Assembly: GCF_001747405.1 (NCBI RefSeq)
Contig: NZ_CP017305.1
Coordinates: 1,754,001-1,818,000 of the forward strand
DNA: 64,000 bases
Direction of reading: 5' to 3'
Source: Chlorobaculum limnaeum
GTDB taxonomy: Bacteria; Bacteroidota; Chlorobiia; Chlorobiales; Chlorobiaceae
Shown: positions 13,611 through 58,431 of the stretch, in pieces
Position numbering within the stretch: position 1 is the first letter of the stretch
Layout of the letters: every line of letters starts with the position of its first letter
Made by a program: the position numbers and the translations under genes
The notes under the pieces: model-generated
What the model was told of the DNA's origin: nothing
The model's database searches: none
Seen by the model: only the letters and a program-made list of their open reading frames with translations

Positions 13611-13787
13611 GGTACTGACATTTTGTTTGATAGGTGGAACATAAACAGGACCCTTTGAAGAAAGATACAATTTTTAAGTTTTTACACCACTCATGACAAA
13701 TGAAATAATTGCTATTTTTTGTGTACAGGAAGAATCGCGCACTTGATTTAATAACCGGAAAAATGTAAATTGACTCCAATTTTTCTC

Positions 13788-13991
13788 ATGAACAGGCGCG
13801 ATAACCGAACCATTGCAATGCCGTTTCCGACCAAACATCGTTCCAAGACCACAGCCTCAGGGCACACGGAGGCCTCACGCCCCGAAGCCCCCGCTGCAAG
13901 CAGCTTTACCGCACACCACTCCTCTCTCCTCTCCGGCATTCTCCTTACCGTATCGGTACCGCTCGTACACGTACGAATTATCGTAGCCTGA
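13788..13991 (+). CDS. Putative branched-chain leader peptide upstream of ilvD
   Basis: This short frame (ATG 13788 or 13818, TGA 13989-13991; 67 or 57 residues) lies in the 436-bp region before ilvD. Its last 21 codons are packed with leucine, isoleucine and valine: 13 of 21, including [16 protein letters not shown] and a terminal RIIVA. That is what ribosome-stalling leaders of ilv operons look like. No clear ribosome-binding site is visible at either ATG, and the N-terminal part is longer than in classical leaders. The gene call rests on composition, position and the hairpins that follow. Confidence 0.6.
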
Positions 13992-14087
13992 CCTGCCGTC
14001 AGCCCGTTCCCAGGTCCACCGTATTTTTCGCGACAATACATCAGACTCCAAGGCTTCGGGTAAGGCAGGCCCGGACTGTTGTTTTTT
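13990..14087 (+). promoter_or_regulatory. Candidate transcription attenuator of the ilv/leu operon
   Basis: GACCTG at 13990-13995, overlapping the leader stop codon, can pair with CAGGTC at 14011-14016. The overlapping CCTGCC (13992-13997) can instead pair with GGCAGG (14064-14069). A terminator-like hairpin spans 14042-14078: outer arm CAGACTCC with GGACTG, inner GGCTT with AGGCC. TTGTTTTTT follows, ending at 14087, 25 nt before the ilvD start. GGCAGG lies inside the terminator stem, so the structures exclude each other, as attenuation requires. Stems are moderate and the terminator has bulges. Confidence 0.5.
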
Positions 14088-14112: not shown

Positions 14113-15795
14113 ATGAGATCCGACACCATAAAAAAAGGATTTGAAAAAGCCCCGCATCGCAGCCTGCTCAAGGCGACCGGATGCGTTTCGTCGAGAGACG
14201 ATTTCTCGAAGCCCTTCATCGGCATCTGCAACTCCTTCAATGAGCTGATTCCCGGCCACGCGCATTTGCAGGAGCTGGGCCGTATCGCCAGGGAGGCCGT
14301 GCGCGAGGCGGGCGGCGTGCCGTTCGAGTTCAACACCATTGGTGTCTGCGACGGCATCGCCATGGGCCACGTCGGCATGCGCTACTCGCTGGCCAGCCGT
14401 GAGCTGATCGCCGACTCGGTTGAGACGGTCGTCGAGGCGCACCGTCTGGATGGCCTGGTCTGCATCCCGAACTGCGACAAGATCACCCCCGGCATGATGA
14501 TGGGCGCGCTTCGCACCAACGTGCCGGTCATCTTCGTCTCCGGCGGGCCGATGAAGGCGGGCCATACCCCCTCGGGCAAAAAGGTCGATCTGATCTCGGT
14601 TTTCGAGGCGGTCGGCAAGTGCAGCACGGGCGAGATCAGCGAGGAGGAGCTTCAGACCATCGAAGAGTGCGGCTGCCCCGGGTGCGGCTCCTGCTCCGGT
14701 ATGTTCACGGCCAACTCGATGAACTGCCTCTGCGAGGCGCTCGGCTTCGCCCTGCCCGGCAACGGCACGATCCTCGCCGCCGACCCGCGCCGCAACGAGC
14801 TGGTGAAAGCCGCCGCGAGCCGCATCGTCGATCTGGTGCGCGATGATGTCCGCCCGCGCCAGATTCTGACCCGCGCGGCGATGCTCAACGCCTTCGCGCT
14901 CGACCTGGCGATGGGCGGCAGCACCAACACGATTCTGCACACGCTCGCCATCGCCAGCGAAGCGGAGCTCGATTTCGACTTCTCGGAGCTGAACGATCTG
15001 TCGTCGAGGACGCCCTACATCTGCAAGGTGAGCCCGGCGACCACCGAGGTGCACATCGAGGATGTGGATCGCGCGGGCGGCATCTCGGCGATTCTGAAGG
15101 AGTTGTCGAAAGTCGAGGGCTTGCTCGACCTCTCCGCCCCGACTGTCACCGGCAAGACGCTCGGCGAAAATATCGCCAGCGCCGAGGTGCTCGACAGCAC
15201 GGTGATCCGCCCGGTCAGTGATCCCTACTCAGCCACCGGCGGCCTCGCCGTGCTGTACGGGAACCTTGCGCCGAATGGCGCGGTTGTGAAGACCGGCGCG
15301 GTCAGCCCGTCGATGATGAAGCACACCGGCCCGGCGAAGGTGTACGACTGCCAGGACGACGCCATCGCGGGCATCATGAGCGGCGACGTGAAATCGGGCG
15401 ACGTGGTGGTGATCCGCTACGAAGGCCCGCGCGGCGGCCCCGGAATGCCGGAGATGCTCTCGCCGACCAGCGCCATCATGGGTCGCGGCCTCGGCGATTC
15501 GGTGGCGCTCATCACCGACGGACGCTTCTCCGGCGGATCGCGCGGCGCCTGCGTCGGCCACGTCTCGCCCGAAGCCGCCGACCGCGGCCCGATCGCGGCG
15601 GTCCGTACCGGCGACATGATCACCATCGACATTCCGGCACGTTCGATGACGGTGGCGCTCGATGACGAAACCATGCGCCAGCGTATCGAGGCATTACCTG
15701 AATTCGAGCCGAAAATCAGGAAGGGCTACCTGGCGCGTTACGCGAGGATGGTCACGTCGGCCAACACCGGCGCGGTGCTGAAAACAGATTTTTAA
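14113..15795 (+). CDS. ilvD: Dihydroxy-acid dehydratase IlvD
   Basis: The product of about 560 residues dehydrates dihydroxyisovalerate and dihydroxymethylvalerate to the 2-keto acids of valine and isoleucine. Iron-sulfur ligands sit in [23 protein letters not shown] and [14 protein letters not shown], and the C-terminus carries GRFSGGSRG. The protein is full length. The ATG at 14113 ([10 protein letters not shown]) is preferred because the family begins this way, while an ATG at 14107 adds two residues. It is the first structural gene after the putative attenuator, with ilvB 73 bp downstream. Confidence 0.97.
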
Positions 15796-15868: not shown

Positions 15869-17590
15869 ATGCACAATAACGGAGAGAAACTGATCGGATC
15901 CGAAATATTTTTCGAGTGTCTGAGGCGTGAAAACGTCGAGTACATCTTCGGCTACCCCGGCGGGGCGTTGCTGAAGGTCTACGAAACCCTGCACGATGTC
16001 GAGGACATCGAGCACATCCTCGTGCGCCACGAACAGGGCGCGACCCATATGGCCGAGGGGTACGCCCGCGCCACCGGCAGGCCCGGCGTGGTGCTCGTTA
16101 CCTCCGGCCCCGGCGCGACCAACACGGTCACCGGCATCACCAACGCCTACATGGACTCCACGCCGCTGGTGGTCTTCACCGGCCAGGTGCCGAGCACGCT
16201 GATCGGCAACGACGCCTTCCAGGAGGCGGACATTGTCGGCATTACGCGGCCGATCACCAAGCACAACTTCCTCGTCAAGGATGTGAAGGAGCTTGCCTCG
16301 ACCATCCGCAAGGCGTTTTACCTCGCCACCAACGGACGGCCCGGCCCGGTGCTGGTCGATATGCCGAAGGATGTGCTCAACGCCGATTGCATCTTCGAAT
16401 GGCCTGAGAGCGTTGACATTCGCGGCTTCAAGCCGACCATCAAGTGCCACGCAAACCAGGTGCAGAAGGCGGCGAAAATGATCGCCAAAGCCAGGCGCCC
16501 GCTGCTCTACGTCGGCGGCGGCGTCATCACGGCTGAAGCCTCGGAGGAGCTGCGCAAGCTCGCCATCGACCAGCAGATTCCGGTCACCATGACCCTGCAG
16601 GGGCTTGGCGCCTTTCCCGGCGACCATCCGCTCTCGATGGGGATGCTCGGGATGCACGGCACTTACTGGGCCAACCAGGCGGTGAGCAACTGCGACCTCC
16701 TGATCGCCGTCGGCGCGCGCTTCGACGACCGTGTCACCGGCAAGGTGGATACCTTCGCCACGCAGGCCTACAAGATCCACAACGACATCGACCCGACCAA
16801 CGTGGACAAGAACATCAAGGTCGATCTGCCGGTGGTCGGCGACTCGAAGGACTTCCTCGCCTCGCTCATCGAAGCGATGCCGAAGGCGAAGGAGGATCGC
16901 GGCGCGTGGCTCTCGGAAATCGAGGCGTGGCGCAAGCAATGTCCGCTCGACTACACCGTCGAGCCAGATTCGCTCAAGACCGAGTTCGTCATCGACGAGG
17001 TTTCGAAGCAGACCAGAGGACACGCTGTGGTCGTCACCGACGTCGGCCAGCACCAGATGTGGACGTCGCAGTACTACAAGTTCACCGAACCGCGCTCGAT
17101 CATCACCAGCGGCGGCCTCGGCACGATGGGCTTCGGCCTGCCATCGGCCATCGGCGCGGCGTTCGGCGTCACCGACCGGCCGGTGGTGCTCTTCACCGGC
17201 GACGGCGGCCTGATGATGAACATCCAGGAGCTGGTCACGGCTGTTTTCAACAAGCTGCCGGTCAAGATATTCCTGATCAACAACAGCTACCTCGGCATGG
17301 TGCGCCAGTGGCAGGAGCTGTTCCATCAGGAGAAGTACTCCTTCACCGACCTTGCGTCGAGCAACCCCGATTTCGTGAAGGTTGCCGAGGCATTTGGCTG
17401 CAAGGCGATGAGCGCAAGCAATCCCGAATCGGCGCGAAACGCCATCTCGGAAGCGCTCGCGTACAATGACGGGCCGGTGCTGGTCGATTTCAGGGTTATC
17501 CGCAAGGATATGGTTTTTCCAATGGTGCCCGCAGGCGGATCGATTTCCGACATGCTGCTGGCCCGGCTGAATCCGAAAACAATGGTTTAA
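15869..17590 (+). CDS. ilvB: Acetolactate synthase, large catalytic subunit
   Basis: This 573-residue ThDP enzyme condenses pyruvate with pyruvate or 2-oxobutyrate in the first common step of valine/leucine and isoleucine synthesis. The ThDP-activating glutamate is in RHEQGATHMAEG (near residue 55). FAD-binding and central domains follow, then the ThDP/Mg motif GDGGLMMNIQELVTA...NNSYLGMVRQWQ. The length is normal. It ends 9 bp before ilvN, its regulatory subunit, so the two are translated as a pair. Confidence 0.98.
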   Translation: MHNNGEKLIGSEIFFECLRRENVEYIFGYPGGALLKVYETLHDVEDIEHILVRHEQGATHMAEGYARATGRPGVVLVTSGPGATNTVTGITNAYMDSTPLVVFTGQVPSTLIGNDAFQEADIVGITRPITKHNFLVKDVKELASTIRKAFYLATNGRPGPVLVDMPKDVLNADCIFEWPESVDIRGFKPTIKCHANQVQKAAKMIAKARRPLLYVGGGVITAEASEELRKLAIDQQIPVTMTLQGLGAFPGDHPLSMGMLGMHGTYWANQAVSNCDLLIAVGARFDDRVTGKVDTFATQAYKIHNDIDPTNVDKNIKVDLPVVGDSKDFLASLIEAMPKAKEDRGAWLSEIEAWRKQCPLDYTVEPDSLKTEFVIDEVSKQTRGHAVVVTDVGQHQMWTSQYYKFTEPRSIITSGGLGTMGFGLPSAIGAAFGVTDRPVVLFTGDGGLMMNIQELVTAVFNKLPVKIFLINNSYLGMVRQWQELFHQEKYSFTDLASSNPDFVKVAEAFGCKAMSASNPESARNAISEALAYNDGPVLVDFRVIRKDMVFPMVPAGGSISDMLLARLNPKTMV

Positions 17591-17599
17591 GCAACTTCT

Positions 17600-18079
17600 A
17601 TGAAACATCTTATATCCGTTCTGGTCGAGAACAAGTTCGGCACGCTGAACCGGGTTGCGGCCATGTTCAGCGCCCGCGGCTTCAATCTCGAAAGCATCTC
17701 CATCGGCGAGACCGAAGACCCCGAAATTTCGCGCATGACCATCGTGACGCGGGGCGAAGACCGCATCATCAGCCAGGTGCTCAAGCAGCTCAACCGGCTG
17801 GTCGATACGATCAAGGTGACCGACCTCACTCATCAGCCGCATGTGGAGCGCGAACTGCTGCTTCTGAGCCTGAAACTCAACAAATCCACCCAGCACGAGA
17901 TTTTCGAACTGGCCAATGTTTTTAAGGGAAAAGTCGTGGATATAAAGCAAAAATCCATTACTATTGAGTTCGTCGGTTCGCCCGACAAAATCAACACGGC
18001 TATCGACCTTTTCAGGCCCTTCGGCATCCGTGAGCTCGCCCGCTCCGGCGCGGTCGCCATCCATCGCGGCGAGAACTGA
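17600..18079 (+). CDS. ilvN: Acetolactate synthase, small regulatory subunit
   Basis: The 159-residue product begins with an ACT domain (MKHLISVLVENKFGTLNRVAAMFSARGFN, given here from residues 1 to 29 in overlapping terms), followed by the C-terminal ALS small-subunit domain. It binds valine and confers feedback inhibition on IlvB. Length and both domains are as expected. It lies between ilvB and ilvC in the operon. Confidence 0.97.
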   Translation: MKHLISVLVENKFGTLNRVAAMFSARGFNLESISIGETEDPEISRMTIVTRGEDRIISQVLKQLNRLVDTIKVTDLTHQPHVERELLLLSLKLNKSTQHEIFELANVFKGKVVDIKQKSITIEFVGSPDKINTAIDLFRPFGIRELARSGAVAIHRGEN

Positions 18080-18115: not shown

Positions 18116-19114
18116 ATGTCAATGAATGTCTATTACGAGCAGGATGCCGATCTCGCGGTACTGCAGAACAAGAATATCGCCATTCTCGGCTATGGAAGCC
18201 AGGGCCACGCCCATGCGCTGAACCTGAAGGACAGCGGCATGAACGTCTGCGTCGGCCTCAAGACCGACAGCGCCTCTTGCGCCAAAGCACGTGAAGCCGG
18301 CCTGAAGGTTGACACTGTCGCCGAAGCGGTCAAATGGGCAGATATTATCATGGTGCTCCTGCCGGATCAGACCCAGAAAAGCGTTTACGACAACGAAATC
18401 GCGCCGAACATGAAATCGGGCGCGACGCTCGCTTTCGGTCACGGCTTCAATATTCACTACAAGCAGATCGTGCCTCCGGCTGACGTGAACGTCATCATGA
18501 TAGCACCGAAAAGCCCCGGCCACCTCGTTCGCCGCACCTACACCGAAGGCAACGGCGTGCCGTGCCTGATCGCGGTGCACCAGGATGCCACCGGCGACGC
18601 CAAGGCTATCGCGCTGGCGTGGGCCAAAGGCATCGGCGGCACCAAGGCTGGCGTCATCGAGACCAACTTCAAGGACGAGACCGAGACCGACCTTTTCGGC
18701 GAGCAGGCCGTGCTTTGCGGCGGCTCGGCCGAGCTGATCAAGATCGGCTTCGAGACCCTCACCGAAGCTGGCTATCCGCCGGAACTGGCCTACTTCGAGT
18801 GCATGCATGAGCTGAAGCTCATCGTCGATCTCTACTACGAAGGCGGCCTGTCGCGCATGAACTACTCGGTCAGCGACACCGCCGAATATGGCGGCATGAC
18901 CCGCGGCCCGCGCGTTATCGCGGCCAACGCCAAAGCCGAGATGAAGAAGATTCTCGAAGAGGTGCAGGACGGGCGCTTCGCCAAAGAGTTCATCGACGAG
19001 TGCAACTCCGGCTACAAAAAGCTCAACGAGCTTCGCGAGAGCAATCGCAACCACCCAATCGAGGTGGTCGGCGCGAAGCTGCGCGAGATGATGAGCTGGC
19101 TGAAAAAGAAATGA
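18116..19114 (+). CDS. ilvC: Ketol-acid reductoisomerase (class I)
   Basis: The 332-residue short-form KARI carries out the isomerisation and NADPH reduction of acetolactate. The N-terminal Rossmann fold has [13 protein letters not shown], and the cofactor loop ends in [10 protein letters not shown]. The C-terminal knotted domain contains the metal-binding glutamates in [10 protein letters not shown] and [12 protein letters not shown]. ATGs at 18116 and 18122 are both plausible. Its stop overlaps the first possible leuB start, indicating translational coupling. Confidence 0.97.
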
Positions 19115-19125
19115 GCGGGAGGATG

Positions 19126-20181
19126 ATGTATAAAATAGTCTCCATACCCGGCGACGGCATCGGCCCCGAAGTGGTAGCCGGTGCTTTGGAAGTACTCAAC
19201 GCCGTCGCGAAAAAGCACGGCTTCGAAGTCGAAATCGAGGAGCACCTCTTCGGCGGCGCTTCATACGACGTGTACGGCTCCATGCTGACCGACGAGACAC
19301 TCGAAGCATGCAAGAACTGCGACGCCGTGCTGCTCGGTGCAGTCGGCGGTTACAAGTGGGAAAACCTTCCGCACGACAAAAAACCCGAAGCGGCGCTGCT
19401 GAAACTCCGCAAAGAGCTTGGCCTCTTCGCCAACCTGCGTCCGGCGAAGGTCTATGACGCCCTCGTGGCATCATCGACGCTGAAGACCGAAGTGGTGCAG
19501 GGCACCGATTTCATGGTGTTCCGCGAGTTGACCGGCGGCATCTACTTCGGCCAGCCGAGAGGCTACGACGAGAATCGCGGCTGGAACACGATGGTCTATG
19601 AGCGTTACGAGGTCGAGCGCATCGCGCGGCTTGCTTTCGAGTATGCGCAGAAACGCGGCAACGCCAAGGTGACCTCGATCGACAAGGCCAACGTGCTCGA
19701 AGTCTCGCAGTTCTGGCGCAACATCGTGCATGAAGTGCACCAGGATTTCCCTGAGATCGAGCTGGTGGACATGTACGTGGACAACGCCGCCATGCAGGTG
19801 GTGCGCAATCCGAAGCAGTTCGAGGTCATCGTGACCGGAAACATCTTCGGCGACATTCTGAGCGATATCTCCGGCATGATCACCGGCAGCCTCGGCATGT
19901 TGCCGTCGGCCAGCATCGGCTCGGAGCATGCGCTCTACGAACCGATTCACGGCAGCGCTCCGGACATCGCGGGTCAGAACAAGGCCAACCCGATCGCGAC
20001 CATTGCATCGGTAGCCATGATGTTCGAGAACAGCTTCAACAGGCCAGAAGTGGCTGGCGACATCTACGCCGCCATCGAAGGCGCGCTTGCCGCAGGCCTC
20101 CGCACGGGCGACATCGCCGCGCCAGGCGAGGCGATCTGCTCGACAACCGAAATGACGGCAGCCATCGTCGCCCGAATTTGA
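19126..20181 (+). CDS. leuB: 3-Isopropylmalate dehydrogenase
   Basis: The product of about 351 residues oxidatively decarboxylates 3-isopropylmalate, and probably also 3-methylmalate in the citramalate route. Visible motifs are IPGDGIGPEVV at the N-terminus, RELTGGIYFGQPRG, the metal-binding NIFGDILSDISGMITGSLG and EPIHGSAPDIAGQNKANP. Three in-frame ATGs (19111, 19123, 19126) cluster over the ilvC stop. I choose 19126 because MYKIVSIPGDG is the usual beginning and GGGAGG precedes it. A terminator follows, so leuC may have its own promoter or depend on readthrough. Confidence 0.96.
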   Translation: MYKIVSIPGDGIGPEVVAGALEVLNAVAKKHGFEVEIEEHLFGGASYDVYGSMLTDETLEACKNCDAVLLGAVGGYKWENLPHDKKPEAALLKLRKELGLFANLRPAKVYDALVASSTLKTEVVQGTDFMVFRELTGGIYFGQPRGYDENRGWNTMVYERYEVERIARLAFEYAQKRGNAKVTSIDKANVLEVSQFWRNIVHEVHQDFPEIELVDMYVDNAAMQVVRNPKQFEVIVTGNIFGDILSDISGMITGSLGMLPSASIGSEHALYEPIHGSAPDIAGQNKANPIATIASVAMMFENSFNRPEVAGDIYAAIEGALAAGLRTGDIAAPGEAICSTTEMTAAIVARI

Positions 20182-20347: not shown

Positions 20348-21643
20348 ATGGCACAAACGATAACCCAGAAAATTTTCGCCAAAGCCGCGAACCGCAAGTT
20401 CGTCGATCCCGGCCAGAGCGTATGGCTTAATGTCGATGTCCTGTTGACGCACGACGTCTGCGGGCCGCCGACCTTCGATATCTTCAAGCAGGAGTTCGGC
20501 CCGAAGGCCAAAGTGTGGGATCCGTCGAAAGTGGTGGTGCTTCCCGACCACTACATCTTCACAGCCAACGAACACGCCCACCGCAACATCGACCTGTTGA
20601 GGCAGTTCGCCGCCGAGCAGGGGCTGCCGAACTACTATGACGTAGGCACCGATCGTTATCGCGGCGTCTGCCACGTCGCGCTGGCCGAAGAGGGCTTCAA
20701 CCTCCCCGGCACAGTGCTCTTCGGCACCGACTCGCACACCTGCACCTCGGGCGCGTTCGGCATGTTCGGCTCCGGCATCGGCAACACCGACGCGGCCTTC
20801 ATCCTCGGCACCGGCAAGCTCTGGGAAAAGGTGCCCGATTCGATGAAGTTCACCTTCGAGGGGCAGATGCCAGAGTACCTGACGGCCAAAGACCTGATTT
20901 TGCAGATCCTCGGCGACATCACCACCGACGGCGCGACCTACCGCGCGATGGAGTTCGACGGCGAAGCGGTCTATTCGCTGCCGATCGACGAGCGCATGAC
21001 GCTCTGCAACATGGCCATCGAGGCCGGTGGCATGAACGGCATCATCGCCGCCGATTCTGTCACCGAGGCCTTCGTGAAGGCGCGCACCAGCAAGCCGTAC
21101 GAGATTTTCCACAGCGACCCGGACGCGCAGTACCACAGCATGTACCGCTACAACGTCGAGCAGATGGAGCCGGTTGTGGCGCAGCCGCACAGCCCGGACA
21201 ACCGCGCAACCGTGCGCAGCGTGGCCGGAACGCCGATCACCAAATCGTACATCGGCTCCTGCACCGGCGGCAAGCTGACCGACTTCAGGCTTGCGGCGAA
21301 AATCCTCAAGGGCAAGCAGGTCAGCGTGACGACCAACATCGTGCCCGCGACGGTACTCGTGGCATCGCAGCTCGAAACCGAGATGTACGACGGCCAGAGC
21401 CTGCGCCAGATTTTCGAGGATGCCGGTTGCAGCATCGCCCTGCCCTCGTGCGCGGCGTGCCTCGGCGGCCCTTCGGACACGGTCGGACGTTCGGTCGATA
21501 ACGACGTGGTCGTTTCGACCACCAACCGCAACTTCCCCGGACGCATGGGCAGCAAGTTCGCGGGCGTCTACCTGGCCTCTCCGCTGACTGCGGCGGCCTC
21601 CGCCGTGACGGGCAAACTCACCGATCCGAGGGATTTCCTCTGA
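20348..21643 (+). CDS. leuC: Isopropylmalate isomerase large subunit (homoaconitase-type LeuC)
   Basis: The 431-residue aconitase-family protein isomerises 2- to 3-isopropylmalate and probably citramalate to 3-methylmalate. FGTDSHTCTSGAFG holds one cluster-region motif, GSCTGGKLTDF carries a cluster cysteine, and CAACLGGPSDTVG supplies the others. The length of about 430 is that of the archaeal-type LeuC group rather than the enterobacterial one of about 466. It is followed 35 bp later by leuD, the small subunit. Confidence 0.95.
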   Translation: MAQTITQKIFAKAANRKFVDPGQSVWLNVDVLLTHDVCGPPTFDIFKQEFGPKAKVWDPSKVVVLPDHYIFTANEHAHRNIDLLRQFAAEQGLPNYYDVGTDRYRGVCHVALAEEGFNLPGTVLFGTDSHTCTSGAFGMFGSGIGNTDAAFILGTGKLWEKVPDSMKFTFEGQMPEYLTAKDLILQILGDITTDGATYRAMEFDGEAVYSLPIDERMTLCNMAIEAGGMNGIIAADSVTEAFVKARTSKPYEIFHSDPDAQYHSMYRYNVEQMEPVVAQPHSPDNRATVRSVAGTPITKSYIGSCTGGKLTDFRLAAKILKGKQVSVTTNIVPATVLVASQLETEMYDGQSLRQIFEDAGCSIALPSCAACLGGPSDTVGRSVDNDVVVSTTNRNFPGRMGSKFAGVYLASPLTAAASAVTGKLTDPRDFL

Positions 21644-21678: not shown

Positions 21679-22251
21679 ATGGACACCATCATACAGGGTA
21701 AAGCCTACGTTCTCGGCAAGAATATCGACACCGACCAGATCATTCCCGCCGAACACCTGGTCTACAGCCTCTCCGATCCCGAAGAGGTGAAGATGTACGG
21801 CAAATACGCGCTCTCCGGCGTTCCGATCGAGCAGGCGGGACTTCCGGAAGGGGGCATTCCATTCGTCGAGGAGGGCTACTACAGCTCGCCCTACTCGATC
21901 ATCATCGCAGGCCCCAACTTCGGTTGCGGCTCGTCGAGGGAGCACGCTCCCTTCGCGCTGAAGGTCGCCGGAGCGAGAGCGATCATCGCCGAATCCTACG
22001 CAAGAATTTTCTATCGCAACTGCGTGGATGGCGGCTTTGTTATTCCCTTTGAGACCGCGCAGCCGCTCAACAAATCGATCCTGACGGGCGACGAACTGTC
22101 GCTCGACATGGAGAACAACACGCTGACCAACCTCACGCAGAACGTCACCTACCAGCTCCGGCCGCTGGGCGACGTCGTGAACATCGTGCAGGCAGGCGGC
22201 ATCTTTGAATACGCAAGGAAAAACGACCTCATGGCTACGACTGAGGCATAA
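21679..22251 (+). CDS. leuD: Isopropylmalate isomerase small subunit
   Basis: The 190-residue swivel domain of the LeuCD isomerase contains GKNIDTDQIIPAEHL, the hallmark FGCGSSREHAPFALK and YARIFYRNCVDGG. It pairs with LeuC to complete the active site. It lies between leuC and cimA, with cimA starting 9 bp after its stop, so the three form one translational unit. Confidence 0.96.
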   Translation: MDTIIQGKAYVLGKNIDTDQIIPAEHLVYSLSDPEEVKMYGKYALSGVPIEQAGLPEGGIPFVEEGYYSSPYSIIIAGPNFGCGSSREHAPFALKVAGARAIIAESYARIFYRNCVDGGFVIPFETAQPLNKSILTGDELSLDMENNTLTNLTQNVTYQLRPLGDVVNIVQAGGIFEYARKNDLMATTEA

Positions 22252-22259
22252 GCAACAGC

Positions 22260-23864
22260 ATGGTAATTGAACTGTATGACACCACCCTGCGTGACGGTAC
22301 GCAGGGTGAGCACATCAATCTTTCGGTACAGGACAAGCTTCTGATCGCCGAACGGCTCGACGAGTTCGGCGTGGACTTCATCGAGGGTGGCTGGCCGAGC
22401 AGCAATCCAAAGGACGAGGAGTTCTTCCTCAAGGCCAGAAAGCTCGATTTCAAGCACGCCCGCCTCACCGCGTTCGGCTCGACGGCTCGGTCGCTCGACA
22501 ACATCGAGGGCGACCCGAACCTGGTCGGCCTGGTCAGATGCGAGGCGCCGGTGCTCACCATTTTCGGAAAAACCTGGAAGGCCCACTCCGTCAAGAGTCT
22601 CGGCATTTCGGACGACGAGAACGCCGAGCTGATCCGCCGTTCGGTGCGATTCCTCGTCGAGTCGGGCCGCGAGGTGTTCTTCGACGCGGAGCACTTTTTC
22701 GACGGCTGGAAGGACAACGCGGAGTTCGCTGAACGGATGATCACGGCAGCCGTCGAGGCAGGCGCGAGCCGCGTCGTGCTTTGCGACACCAACGGCGGCA
22801 CGCTGCCCCACGAAGTCGCGGCGATCGTCACGCGGGTGCGCCAGATCGTTGTTGTGCCGGTCGGCATCCACGCGCACAACGACGGCGACCTCGCCGTGGC
22901 CAACTCCATCGAGGCGGTCAGGGCAGGCGCGACGCAGGTGCAGGGTACGATCAACGGCATCGGCGAGCGGTGCGGCAACGCCAACCTGGTGAGCATCATT
23001 CCGAACCTCATGCTCAAGCTCAGCAGCGAGTTCAGCCATGTGCGGGATATGAAAGCGCTCACCTCGATGTCGAAGTTCGTGTTCGAGATTCTGAACCTCC
23101 CGCCCGACACCAAAGCGCCCTTCGTCGGCAAATCGGCCTTCGCGCACAAGGGCGGCATCCACGTCAGCGCGGTGATGAAGGAGAGTTCGCTCTACGAGCA
23201 CATCGATCCGGCGCTGGTCGGCAATCGTCAGCGCGTGCTGGTCTCGGAGCTGGCGGGCCAGAGCAACATCCGCTACAAGGCGCAGGAGCTTGGCATTTCG
23301 TTGCCGGAGAAGGGAGAGGTGTTCAAAAATCTGGTCAACCACGTCAAGAAGCTCGAACACCAGGGCTACCAGTTCGACGGGGCTGAAGCCTCCTTCGAGC
23401 TGATCCTGCGCCGCGAACTCGGCCAGTTCACGCCATTTTTCGAGGTGATCGAGTCGAAGGTGGTGATCCAGAACGGGCAAGAGATCAAGGCGGTCGATCA
23501 GGCCGTGATGAAGGTGGTTGTCGGCGATGAAACAGAGCAGACGGTCGCGGACGGCGACGGCCCGGTCAACGCGCTCGACAAGGCGCTGCGCAAGGCGCTG
23601 CTGCACTTCTACCCGGACATTCGCGCCATCAGGCTGATCGACTACAAGGTGCGCGTGCTCGAAGAGAAGAGCGGCACGAGCGCCAAGGTGCGCGTGCTCA
23701 TCGAGAGCAGCGACGGCCAGAACAGCTGGGGCACGGTAGGCGTCTCGACCAACATCATCGAGGCAAGCCTTCAGGCCCTCAACGACAGCATCAACTACTA
23801 CCTCTTCTACCACCAGTCGAAAGCGGTCGCGACAGCTCCATCAAGCGAGGCTTTGAACGGTTAG
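22260..23864 (+). CDS. cimA: (R)-citramalate synthase CimA
   Basis: The 534-residue DRE-TIM enzyme condenses pyruvate and acetyl-CoA. The N-terminus is YDTTLRDGTQGEHINLSVQDK, given in parts: the catalytic TLRDGTQ and DFIEGGWPSSNP. Metal ligands lie in HAHNDGDLAVANS, and GTINGIGERCGNANL follows. A C-terminal LeuA allosteric domain occupies about 400-534. The GTQGEH/GGWP variants are those of citramalate synthases, not 2-isopropylmalate synthase. With LeuCD and LeuB next door it gives a threonine-independent route to 2-oxobutyrate and isoleucine, well known in Chlorobi-like anaerobes. No leuA is present in the window. Confidence 0.93.
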   Translation: MVIELYDTTLRDGTQGEHINLSVQDKLLIAERLDEFGVDFIEGGWPSSNPKDEEFFLKARKLDFKHARLTAFGSTARSLDNIEGDPNLVGLVRCEAPVLTIFGKTWKAHSVKSLGISDDENAELIRRSVRFLVESGREVFFDAEHFFDGWKDNAEFAERMITAAVEAGASRVVLCDTNGGTLPHEVAAIVTRVRQIVVVPVGIHAHNDGDLAVANSIEAVRAGATQVQGTINGIGERCGNANLVSIIPNLMLKLSSEFSHVRDMKALTSMSKFVFEILNLPPDTKAPFVGKSAFAHKGGIHVSAVMKESSLYEHIDPALVGNRQRVLVSELAGQSNIRYKAQELGISLPEKGEVFKNLVNHVKKLEHQGYQFDGAEASFELILRRELGQFTPFFEVIESKVVIQNGQEIKAVDQAVMKVVVGDETEQTVADGDGPVNALDKALRKALLHFYPDIRAIRLIDYKVRVLEEKSGTSAKVRVLIESSDGQNSWGTVGVSTNIIEASLQALNDSINYYLFYHQSKAVATAPSSEALNG

Positions 23865-24669: not shown

Positions 24670-26281
24670 AGAATTCAAGCCATCGCCCCGCGGCACTCAA
24701 TCGCCGCTCGGGGAGGTGACCACGCGAACAAATTTCTGATTACATCAAGCTCCAAAAGGAGCCATTCAAACAGGCGCAAAAAAGGAGCGGCGAGCAGCCG
24801 GTCCAAGTTCATCACGAGGAACGTGATCGAGACCACACTCAGACTGCTCTCGGCAAGCCTCGCCATTACCCGGCCCAGCCCGTATCGGCGCTTCGCCTTA
24901 CCGAACATGCCTTCGACGGCATTCCGGACTCCTTCGTCTTCCCTGATCTGCCGCCGGCGGGCCCGGTTCTTCTCAACATCCTTCGGGGGCCGACCGAGCG
25001 GCACGCCGCTCAGCCGGATTCCTCGTGCCTTGCACCACATCCGGTTGGCCAGCGTCCGGTAGATCTTGTCGGCATGGACTGATTCGGGATAGTGCCCGTA
25101 GCGCTCGCGATATCGCTCGATATCCCGCACCAGGTCGCAGCCTTCGTTGTAGGCGTTCCAGCTCATCCGTTCCGGCAGGCTGATGCCGTCGACGACGCTG
25201 ATGGAGAGCTTCATGCCGAACTCCGTCCTGGCTGCGGCCTTGCCCCGTACGATCGGCCTGACATGGGGCTGGCTGATGCTGACGATTCGATCGCTGATGC
25301 TCTTCCTGTCACTCTTGTACATTTCCTGTTGCTGCCGATACAGCTCATCGATCACCAGCAGGTCGCGATACCGCGCTGTCGAGAGGACGGTCAGCGGTAC
25401 AGCGGCGCTGAGCGCTTCGATATGCTTCAGGTTTCGACCGATGTACTGCAACTGCTGGCGAATGGCTCGACGAAGCGCTTTTTTCGACAGGTTCCGCTTC
25501 ATGATTGCCGAGAGAAACGCTTTCCTGGCCTTCTTGCGATACGTCCTCGGCTTGCCCAACTCCTGCGGAGCATTGGCACACAACTGGTCGATGATTTTCT
25601 CGGTCTTTTCCCGTGCTTCGTTGAGCAGACCAATATCCGTCGGATAGGCGATGTCTGCCGGTGCGCAGGTGGCATCAACGATGAGTTTGCCCTTGTTGCC
25701 GGAACCACCGTCTCCGTCGTCATTCTGGTTCCTTTCCTCAGCCTTCCTGCGCTCTTCAGCCAGATGGCGTTGCAGGAGTTCCTCCTGCAACGCGGCCAGA
25801 TCGGTATGCTTCAGCCGCTTCCGAAAGTGGGTCAGCATCGAGGCATCGAAGGGCGCTGCATGCTGGTACGTTTCAAGACCGATAAAGAACTGGAGATACG
25901 GGTTCTCCTTGATCTGTTCGACCGTCTCGATATCCGAAAGGCCGAGCTTCTCCTTGATAATCAAGGACCCCAGCGCCATGCGAACCGTCAGTGCAGGAGC
26001 GCCCCGTTTCGACATGAAGTTTTTGGCATACATCGTCTCGGCGACGTGCCAGGGAATTACGTCGGCGAGCTTCACCCACCGGTTTTCCGGATCGAGTTTA
26101 CCACCAAACGGCAGATGGAAATTTTCGAACGTGAGCTGCTGAAACTTCGGCTGGTACATGAATCGGCGGTATCGAGGTGCAGGGTTTTTGGGGCTTTTTC
26201 AGGCTTTTCCTTGCATTCAAGATACAAAAATACCGCTTAATTCATTACCATAAAACAATTTAACCATTATTCAGCAGACCC
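24659..26281. mobile_element. Insertion sequence, 1623 bp, IS5/IS1182-like
   Basis: The ends are GGGTTTGCTGAA at the left (24659-24670) and, read inward from the right, GGGTCTGCTGAA (26281-26270). These terminal repeats are 12 bp with one mismatch. The element is flanked by the direct repeat GTGGGTA at 24652-24658 and 26282-26288, a 7-bp target duplication. It carries one transposase gene on the minus strand and has inserted in radC. The intact reading frame outside it and the exact duplication suggest a recent event. Confidence 0.93.
24675..26159 (-). CDS. DDE transposase of the insertion element
   Basis: The 494-residue transposase has an N-terminal DUF772-type domain (RMALGSLIIKEKLGLSDIETVEQIKENPYLQFFIG, shown here as the 62-95 region; key piece ENPYLQFFIG). 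The catalytic core includes LIVDATCAPADIAYPTD with the first aspartate and a later VHADKIYRT with the second. The C-terminal region GMFGKAKRRYGLGRVMARL suits the IS4/IS5-type DDE_Tnp_1 fold. The ATG at 26159 lies 122 bp inside the right end, and the stop is 16 bp from the left end. It looks intact, so the element may be active. The exact IS family needs a database match. Confidence 0.92.
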   Translation of the reverse strand: MYQPKFQQLTFENFHLPFGGKLDPENRWVKLADVIPWHVAETMYAKNFMSKRGAPALTVRMALGSLIIKEKLGLSDIETVEQIKENPYLQFFIGLETYQHAAPFDASMLTHFRKRLKHTDLAALQEELLQRHLAEERRKAEERNQNDDGDGGSGNKGKLIVDATCAPADIAYPTDIGLLNEAREKTEKIIDQLCANAPQELGKPRTYRKKARKAFLSAIMKRNLSKKALRRAIRQQLQYIGRNLKHIEALSAAVPLTVLSTARYRDLLVIDELYRQQQEMYKSDRKSISDRIVSISQPHVRPIVRGKAAARTEFGMKLSISVVDGISLPERMSWNAYNEGCDLVRDIERYRERYGHYPESVHADKIYRTLANRMWCKARGIRLSGVPLGRPPKDVEKNRARRRQIREDEGVRNAVEGMFGKAKRRYGLGRVMARLAESSLSVVSITFLVMNLDRLLAAPFLRLFEWLLLELDVIRNLFAWSPPRAAIECRGAMA

Positions 26282-32040: not shown

Positions 32041-32147
32041 ACATCATCTTTCCCGGATTCCCTCCGGGATGGATTTGGCACCGCTCATTTGGAATGAAGG
32101 TTGCCAAGGCTTCGCAGGGCCAGTCCCTCCGCCTTTCTGGATGATAG
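32041..32147 (-). ncRNA. SAM-I (S-box) riboswitch upstream of metY-metX
   Basis: Read on the minus strand from about 32147, ATCATC of P1 is followed by GGCGGAGGGACUGGCCC, then GCGAAGCC, UUGGCAACC, GGUGCCAAAUCC, a P4-like CCCGGAGGGAAUCCGGG and GAAAGAUGAU, which closes P1. These are the conserved S-box core elements in order. The 105 nt between it and metY hold AAGCTTACGC (31956-31965), able to pair with GCGT-GG-AAGCTT (31997-32008). No U-run terminator is seen, so control may act at translation initiation. SAM binding should lower metYX expression. Confidence 0.92.
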
Positions 32148-57789: not shown

Positions 57790-58020
57790 GTAAGGTCTCC
57801 AGGATCGATAAATGGTTGTTGACAGGTAAATCTTTTCTATTTCATGACTTACCTCATCCCGGCAACAAGCCGGAAGCCGTCGCGAAATTTCGACGTGGCC
57901 ATGCCAGATGCAATATAACCACCTCGTCAAACTGACGGAAAAAGATCATGAAATAAAAAAATCAGGTCGTTGAAAAGGACACCAGGCTCTCTTCCCGGAG
58001 CCAATCGGCGGCATTCATCA
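57790..58020 (-). promoter_or_regulatory. Leader between cobalamin riboswitch and nrdJ
   Basis: This 231-bp stretch holds no gene. On the minus strand GGCTC-CGGGAAGA-GAGCC forms a hairpin at about 57985-58003. A T7 run lies at 57954-57960, roughly 25 nt later, and is a possible expression-platform terminator. The pairing immediately before the T run is weak, so the mechanism is unclear. Confidence 0.4.
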
Positions 58021-58260
58021 CGGCAGGTTTCCTGACTTCGATGGCTGCGCCGTCATGACAGCGCATTCACCGGAAACCTCCTTCCCCAGCCTTCCCCGTG
58101 GTAATCAGAGGTTGGCTGAGTGGACAGTCTCCCGCCGCGGCGGCGATGAGGGCAGAGCTGTCTCCATCGTCGCGCGGCAAACCATCTTACAGTTGCGGGC
58201 ACAGTGTGCGATTCCCACGCACTTCCCTTTTACCCGGATGCGAACACCCGGCACCGTAAC
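58021..58260 (-). ncRNA. Cobalamin riboswitch upstream of nrdJ
   Basis: Read on the minus strand, the element opens with GUUACGGUGCC. It continues through GUAAAAGGGAAGUGCGUGGGA, cited as AAAAGGGAA then GUGGGAAUCGCAC, and the core ACUGUGCCCGCAACUGUAA. Then come GAGACUGUCCACUC and AGCCAACCUCUGAUUACCA, and it closes with GUCAGGAAACCUGCC. These are the conserved B12-box blocks in order over about 240 nt. Adenosylcobalamin binding should regulate nrdJ, the B12-dependent enzyme downstream. Confidence 0.92.
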
Positions 58261-58431
58261 GTTCAAAGAACTCCCAATGGTAAGGATTTTTCTGAATGAA
58301 GGCAAAGCCGGAAGGCGATTTTCCGGACGGCGGAGGGGTGACTTAACGATGCTGAACCCGCCCGACGCGGATGGCAAAACGCTTTGCGGGCGAGGAGCGG
58401 GAAAGAATTTTTTTACGGTCGAGATGGCACG
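58261..58431. other. Gene-free spacer
   Basis: 171 bp lie between the 5' end of the cobalamin riboswitch and the 3' end of the reductase/epimerase gene. The nrdJ promoter should lie here on the minus strand, but no clear -35/-10 pair stands out. Confidence 0.4.

Follow-up and report, generated by a model that had tools for sequence, protein, structure and literature searches.

A conserved candidate transcription attenuator with a branched-chain-rich leader frame upstream of the ilvD operon in Chlorobia

The region upstream of ilvD in Chlorobaculum limnaeum very probably contains a ribosome-mediated transcription attenuator of the operon ilvDBNC-leuBCD-cimA, which would respond to the charged tRNAs of valine, isoleucine and leucine and to that of valine above all. 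Several features of classical attenuators coincide here, namely a leader frame enriched in codons for the amino acids that the operon produces, mutually exclusive stems with a common arm and an intrinsic terminator with a U-run ahead of the first gene. The architecture of proteobacterial ilv attenuation, which an earlier sequence-only reading had proposed for this site, is supported by the conserved frame, switch and terminator, although the stems named in that reading were mostly the wrong ones. All positions refer to the window, i.e. the whole analyzed stretch of 64,000 nucleotides, and to its forward strand unless stated otherwise.

Operon, promoter-like site and leader frame

The operon behind the leader comprises eight genes in the order ilvD-ilvB-ilvN-ilvC-leuB-leuC-leuD-cimA, all on the forward strand. 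It opens with the dihydroxy-acid dehydratase gene ilvD (14113–15795, TIGR00110 above cut-off), whose actual start is the ATG at 14113 (MRSD...), and continues with the large and small subunits of acetolactate synthase, ilvB (15869–17590, TIGR00118) and ilvN (17600–18079, TIGR00119), the ketol-acid reductoisomerase ilvC (18116–19114, TIGR00465) and the 3-isopropylmalate dehydrogenase leuB (19123–20181, TIGR00169). These are followed by the leuC-type large (20348–21643, NF001614) and the leuD-type small subunit (21679–22251, TIGR02087) of isopropylmalate dehydratase and by the citramalate synthase cimA (22260–23864, TIGR00977). The gene upstream of the leader is oppositely oriented and consequently no upstream unit ends at the leader.

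Ahead of the leader a promoter-like site was located at 13743–13771 on the forward strand, consisting of TTGATT (13743–13748), a spacer of 17 nt and TAAATT (13766–13771) with a TG just upstream. Of 79 genomes, 67 show the corresponding pattern (TTGnnn, 16 to 18 nt, TAAnTT) ahead of the leader, with a spacing of 17 nt in 64; mononucleotide shuffles exhibited it in 2.8 genomes on average and in 9 of 79 at most. With respect to this pattern transcription is expected to start near 13778. A start inside or downstream of the frame would speak against attenuation, and the conserved promoter-like site, as far as sequence can indicate a start, lies upstream of it.

The leader peptide frame itself extends on the forward strand from the conserved ATG at 13818 to 13991 (57 codons); it is open in 80 genomes and keeps a constant spacing to ilvD. 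Its L/I/V-rich end occupies 13926–13988 and is followed by the stop TGA at 13989–13991. The sequence-only reading had drawn the frame from 13788 to 13991, which is indeed open and in frame, but the ATG at 13788 is not conserved in relatives, and the leader appears to start at 13818 instead. The short L/I/V-rich frame ahead of ilvD described in that reading was recovered as stated, with 13 L/I/V among the final 21 codons, a number that was reached in none of 20,000 nucleotide shuffles of the stretch. No Shine-Dalgarno sequence is evident at the leader, which had been considered a weak point; since ilvD likewise has no obvious ribosome-binding site, its absence is not discriminating.

The comparison of ilvD upstream regions suggested at the outset unveiled that the L/I/V codons are kept in 80 genomes and that the switch described below carries compensatory changes. 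The L/I/V-rich leader frame was found in all 80 element-bearing genomes, in one of them (L143) by inspection of the sequence. Among these, 45 genomes outside the model-building set (L143 by reading) served as an out-of-sample test and carry the frame as well. Over the last 15 codons in 79 genomes, the L/I/V share amounts to 55% in the leader frame, whereas the two remaining forward frames reach 20% and 7%; the mean is 8.72 L/I/V per 15 codons, compared to 3.69 in shuffles with a set maximum of 4.24. Valine occupies leader codon −2 in 73 of 79 genomes. In the second genus (57 genomes, g2) the leader end shares 41% nucleotide identity with the window and still contains 8.6 L/I/V per 15 codons, indicating that the composition is maintained while the leader sequence diverges. 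The two outer genomes (family f3) contain 11 L/I/V per 15 codons at 37% identity. A pairwise substitution test on the leader end yielded 34% synonymous changes (30.5% expected) and thereby no clear purifying selection, so that the leader residues are free to change and the composition rather than the individual residues is preserved. Furthermore, 92% of the leader valine codons in the window's genus are GTA, which makes up 4% of the valine codons in the operon's own genes, the reference for this comparison. Such a bias is as expected for control codons.

Antiterminator, terminator and ribosome position

Downstream of the leader stop two mutually exclusive helices share one arm. The 5′ arm of the antiterminator (14003–14014, forward strand) is 12 nt long, reads CCCGTTCCCAGG in the window and GCCTTTCCCAAG or GCCGGTCCCAAG in relatives, and begins 6–11 nt past the leader stop (11 nt in the window). 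It pairs with CTTCGGGACAGGC, CTTCGGGAACGGC or similar sequences, represented in the window by the 3′ arm CTTCGGGTAAGGC at 14054–14066 of the same strand, which is shared with the terminator as its 5′ arm. Conservation is very high in the 3′ arm CTTCGGGA and in the stretch CCCAAGTCC. In the alignment of 35 sequences 86.6% of the antiterminator cells are paired, compared to 23–52% in slid controls, and changes on both sides were observed at 6 of 11 pairs, for example from G-C to U-A in 10 sequences at one of these pairs. The covariation exceeded that of all 500 shuffles and of every slid control, and RNAalifold recovered the same helix without a given structure. For the 45 genomes outside training 90.9% of the cells are paired and 4 pairs are double-changed, as determined from alignment A2 (48 rows including 3 chance matches), which was fitted to the model and is hence biased towards it. 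Between the two arms (about 14015–14053 in the window) alignment A1 exhibits a strongly conserved CAGAC motif as well as AAGTCC and GGCTT; pairing of AAGTC with GGCTT lengthens the antiterminator.

The mutually exclusive stems originally put forward were GACCTG (13990–13995) with CAGGTC (14011–14016) and CCTGCC (13992–13997) with GGCAGG (14064–14069). Both are present in the window, but the former is unconserved (29% of cells pair, slid controls 21–55%) and the latter is only partly conserved (45%, with the same value for a control slid by +3). As the switch, both stems were rejected, being mostly particular to the species of the window and offset from the conserved antiterminator. The CCTGCC/GGCAGG stem rather represents a species-specific extension of the antiterminator (13992–14069, forward strand) and belongs to the minimum-energy fold of the window.

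The hairpin at 14055–14075 with the T6 tract at 14082–14087 had likewise been pointed out ahead of ilvD and corresponds to the predicted intrinsic terminator (14049–14087, forward strand). Its stem is formed by TTCGGG (14055–14060) and CCCGGA (14070–14075) and is extended by CAA (14049–14051) with TTG (14079–14081). In register, 78% of the CTTCGGG/CCCGGAG stem is paired, compared to 61–62% when slid by 1. The 3′ arm of the terminator varies on one side only (G-C to G-U), and the covariation thus backs the antiterminator and not the terminator. Behind the hairpin a T-tract (at least 5 T in 8) was found in 74 of 79 genomes and is missing in 5. In three related genomes (L103, L104 and L113) the hairpin stands without a T-tract, just 5–6 of 15 leader codons are L/I/V, and the leader reads PVSGVTLKGSVR or similar, a state which may point to decay or to a changed type of control.

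According to the proposed mechanism, the transcript would begin near 13778 and the leader peptide would be translated behind the polymerase. With abundant branched-chain aminoacyl-tRNAs the ribosome would reach the stop at 13989 and cover about 12 nt beyond it. In most relatives this footprint would include the outer half of the 5′ arm of the antiterminator, and CTTCGGG, the arm common to both helices, would be left free to pair with CCCGGA and form the terminator ahead of T6. With scarce branched-chain aminoacyl-tRNAs the ribosome would halt on the upstream L/I/V codons, the 5′ arm at 14003–14014 would be exposed and pair with 14054–14066, no terminator would form and the operon would be read.

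These two states were modeled by folding the RNA with the ribosome at the stop, where pairing was allowed only for the RNA starting 12 nt beyond it (cover taken from PMC4833913), and with the ribosome stalled five codons before the stop position. For the window sequence the computed values were 0.01 for the antiterminator and 0.76 for the terminator with the ribosome at the stop, and 0.62 and 0.00, respectively, with the ribosome stalled upstream. Across the 35 sequences the switch score was 0.72, compared to 0.06 for dinucleotide shuffles. The ribosome geometry of classical attenuators thereby emerges clearly for the window and for the mean of the sequences. About half of the individual sequences show it weakly, the 12-nt mask at the stop leaving more antiterminator than terminator at equilibrium; for these, a contribution of kinetics or of a longer footprint would be required. 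In the species of the window the 12-nt footprint barely reaches the 5′ arm, which begins 11 nt after the stop, and the mask also removes CCTGCC. No conserved protector hairpin of the 1:2 type was found in the sequences compared, small hairpins at the stop codon occurring in some species only. The ribosome-free RNA folds preferentially as the antiterminator, and in terms of these folds readthrough may occur in leader transcripts that carry no ribosome, in contrast to the trp leader of E. coli.

Distribution and a second leader upstream of leuA

For the comparison ilvD upstream regions were gathered from 36 further Chlorobiales genomes. In all except two (G024 and G036) a short frame, rich in branched-chain codons at its end, stops 102–124 nt before ilvD. 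A covariance model of the post-stop region (R1), built from 35 sequences, gave matches in 81 out of 98 genomes from the class. In 80 of them, including nearly all Chlorobiaceae examined, the match is real, and the element is present as a single copy upstream of ilvD. The carriers comprise 78 Chlorobiaceae and two members of another family, which look like Chloroherpeton and a relative. A weak match in G071 and second copies in G021 and G035 were dismissed as chance matches, none of them being located upstream of ilvD. No convincing homologue was observed outside the class among 394 genomes across the phylum (best E 0.0017).

Members of the order without ilvD are also without the element. In ten genomes of the same order (G037, G039, G040 and G042–G048, families f2 and f4), several of them near complete, no ilvD match was obtained, and these organisms probably depend on external branched-chain amino acids. 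G024 and G036 (L108 and L109), complete or near-complete Chlorobiaceae genomes, retain ilvD and the promoter-like site (TTGTATTAATGCATGGGGTGATGTAACTT in L108) with the leader frame and switch absent, an apparent loss of the element. In G041 the ilvD gene behind the element L117 (G041:C22:12712-14391) contains one in-frame TGA, i.e. a sequencing error or a pseudogene.

A second leader precedes leuA. In 13 genomes of the window's genus (L254–L266) a Leu-rich leader is conserved upstream of leuA (MNTVSNMLLLALSLTGLTCLRGSAL in L255), and behind it lies a strong predicted terminator (AAGCCGC...GCGGCTTTTTTT). Leu-rich frames and a similar terminator were also found before leuA in the 8 readable genomes of the second genus (L267, L268, L270, L273, L274, L276, L277 and L280). 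Among these eight are G024 and G036, both of which are without the ilvD element, and in the window's own genome the leader is located at about 2598835–2599050 of G000:C1 on the minus strand. Within the first genus the leader retains CTGAG and the terminator loop retains CTCAG, which makes an antiterminator likely here too, as judged from these motifs. We consider the leuA leader a candidate second attenuator. His- and Trp-rich leaders before hisG and trpE were searched for in about 25 genomes each and none was found. On balance, we lean slightly towards the view that Chlorobia possess two independent attenuators of their own, one for Val/Ile/Leu at ilvDBNC-leuBCD-cimA and one for Leu at leuA, that the former predates the split of Chlorobiaceae and Chloroherpetonaceae and shares no sequence relationship with its proteobacterial counterparts, and that neither has been described previously.

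Alternative explanations and related systems

The strong conservation of the CTTCGGGA arm and of the CCCAAGTCC stretch is what a binding site could display, and the RNA adopts the antiterminator unaided by a ribosome. Both observations would suit a riboswitch or a protein-binding leader, in which a metabolite or an RNA-binding protein selects the structure and the peptide frame is incidental. Nevertheless, an arm with two pairing partners is expected to be conserved anyway, and such a leader predicts neither the L/I/V content retained at 41% identity nor the biased valine codons. The element measures about 90 nt and consists of a single long helix without an aptamer-like fold, and no meaningful Rfam match was obtained for this region up to E = 5 or for 14 relatives at gathering scores; we therefore regard this explanation as very improbable. 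Similarly little weight was assigned to control of translation or to Rho-dependent termination, in which the stalled ribosome would alter the structure near ilvD or shield a Rho site. The genomes L103, L104 and L113, which combine the hairpin with few L/I/V codons and no T-tract, would fit this kind of control, whereas the T-tract behind the hairpin in 74 of 79 genomes, the distance of 102–124 nt between the leader stop and ilvD and the ilvD start left uncovered by the hairpin argue against it.

It is least credible, and practically negligible in our estimate, that the region is a 5′ untranslated region of the usual kind, in which the frame is due to chance and the terminator is a remnant of an upstream unit. 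The codon substitutions at the leader end, which are not clearly purifying, and the persistence of ilvD without the element in G024 and G036 would agree with this. However, 80 genomes with the element, compensatory pairs, the retained L/I/V content and the codon bias argue strongly against it, and the upstream gene, being oppositely directed, provides no unit ending here. Ribosome-mediated attenuation is our preferred reading.

The attenuators of ilvGMEDA, ilvBN and leuABCD in E. coli are leader-peptide attenuators of enterobacteria. The Chlorobia element resembles them in its short L/I/V-rich frame, the arm common to the antiterminator and the intrinsic terminator, and the rare control codons. 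It differs in its unrelated RNA sequence (no Rfam match), in ilvD as the first gene, in a leader of about 45–60 codons whose control codons come last, in an antiterminator arm that begins 6–11 nt past the stop and in that no conserved protector hairpin was found. The mechanism is thus already known as a kind, and the Chlorobia instance matches no described RNA family. In the window region no Rfam family was detected up to E = 5 except for one weak chance match to a miRNA model on the opposite strand, and in the 14 relatives no leader, riboswitch or T-box family was matched at gathering scores.

Leader-peptide attenuation is best known in Proteobacteria and Actinobacteria, and the authors of a 2010 survey knew of none elsewhere before their own Firmicutes case (PMC2965389). 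In the literature searched we found no leader-peptide attenuation of ilv/leu in Chlorobi; the wide in-silico survey of attenuation by Lopatovskaya et al. (2010) may hold an earlier prediction. Chlorobi-1, Chlorobi-RRM, Lnt and SAM-Chlorobi are the Chlorobi RNA motifs of PMC2864571, none of which is placed before ilv in the main text of that paper. For Corynebacterium, attenuation by the ilvB-II motif or at ilvBNC has been proposed or tested (PMC10272879, PMC11857589) and likewise involves a branched-chain-rich upstream frame before ilv followed by a terminator stem; it is actinobacterial and differs in sequence, structure and first gene. The ilvB-OMG and ilvB motifs, RNAs before ilvB that were reinterpreted as upstream frames rich in branched-chain amino acids (PMC10272879), are similar in this respect, but they are linked to ilvB and contain Thr codons in addition; the absence of an Rfam match to them has to be read with the reservation that Rfam 15 may not hold them. 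T-box leaders also couple tRNA charging to the choice between antiterminator and terminator in amino-acid operons. They read the tRNA directly, whereas the Chlorobia element has no T-box match and instead a frame that is predicted to be translated.

A well-conserved case in Chlorobia that is absent from the RNA-family library would imply that transcription and translation are coupled sufficiently closely in these bacteria to permit such control. For green sulfur bacteria it provides a concrete, testable mechanism of amino-acid sensing together with a covariance model for annotation.

Elsewhere in the window, a SAM (S-box) riboswitch (32041–32147) and a cobalamin riboswitch (58005–58273), both on the minus strand, were detected well over the Rfam thresholds. 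Furthermore, shortly past the operon and a radC-like gene, a transposase-like frame of 494 aa (24675–26159, minus strand) was found, which by its sequence looks like an IS1182/IS5-type element.
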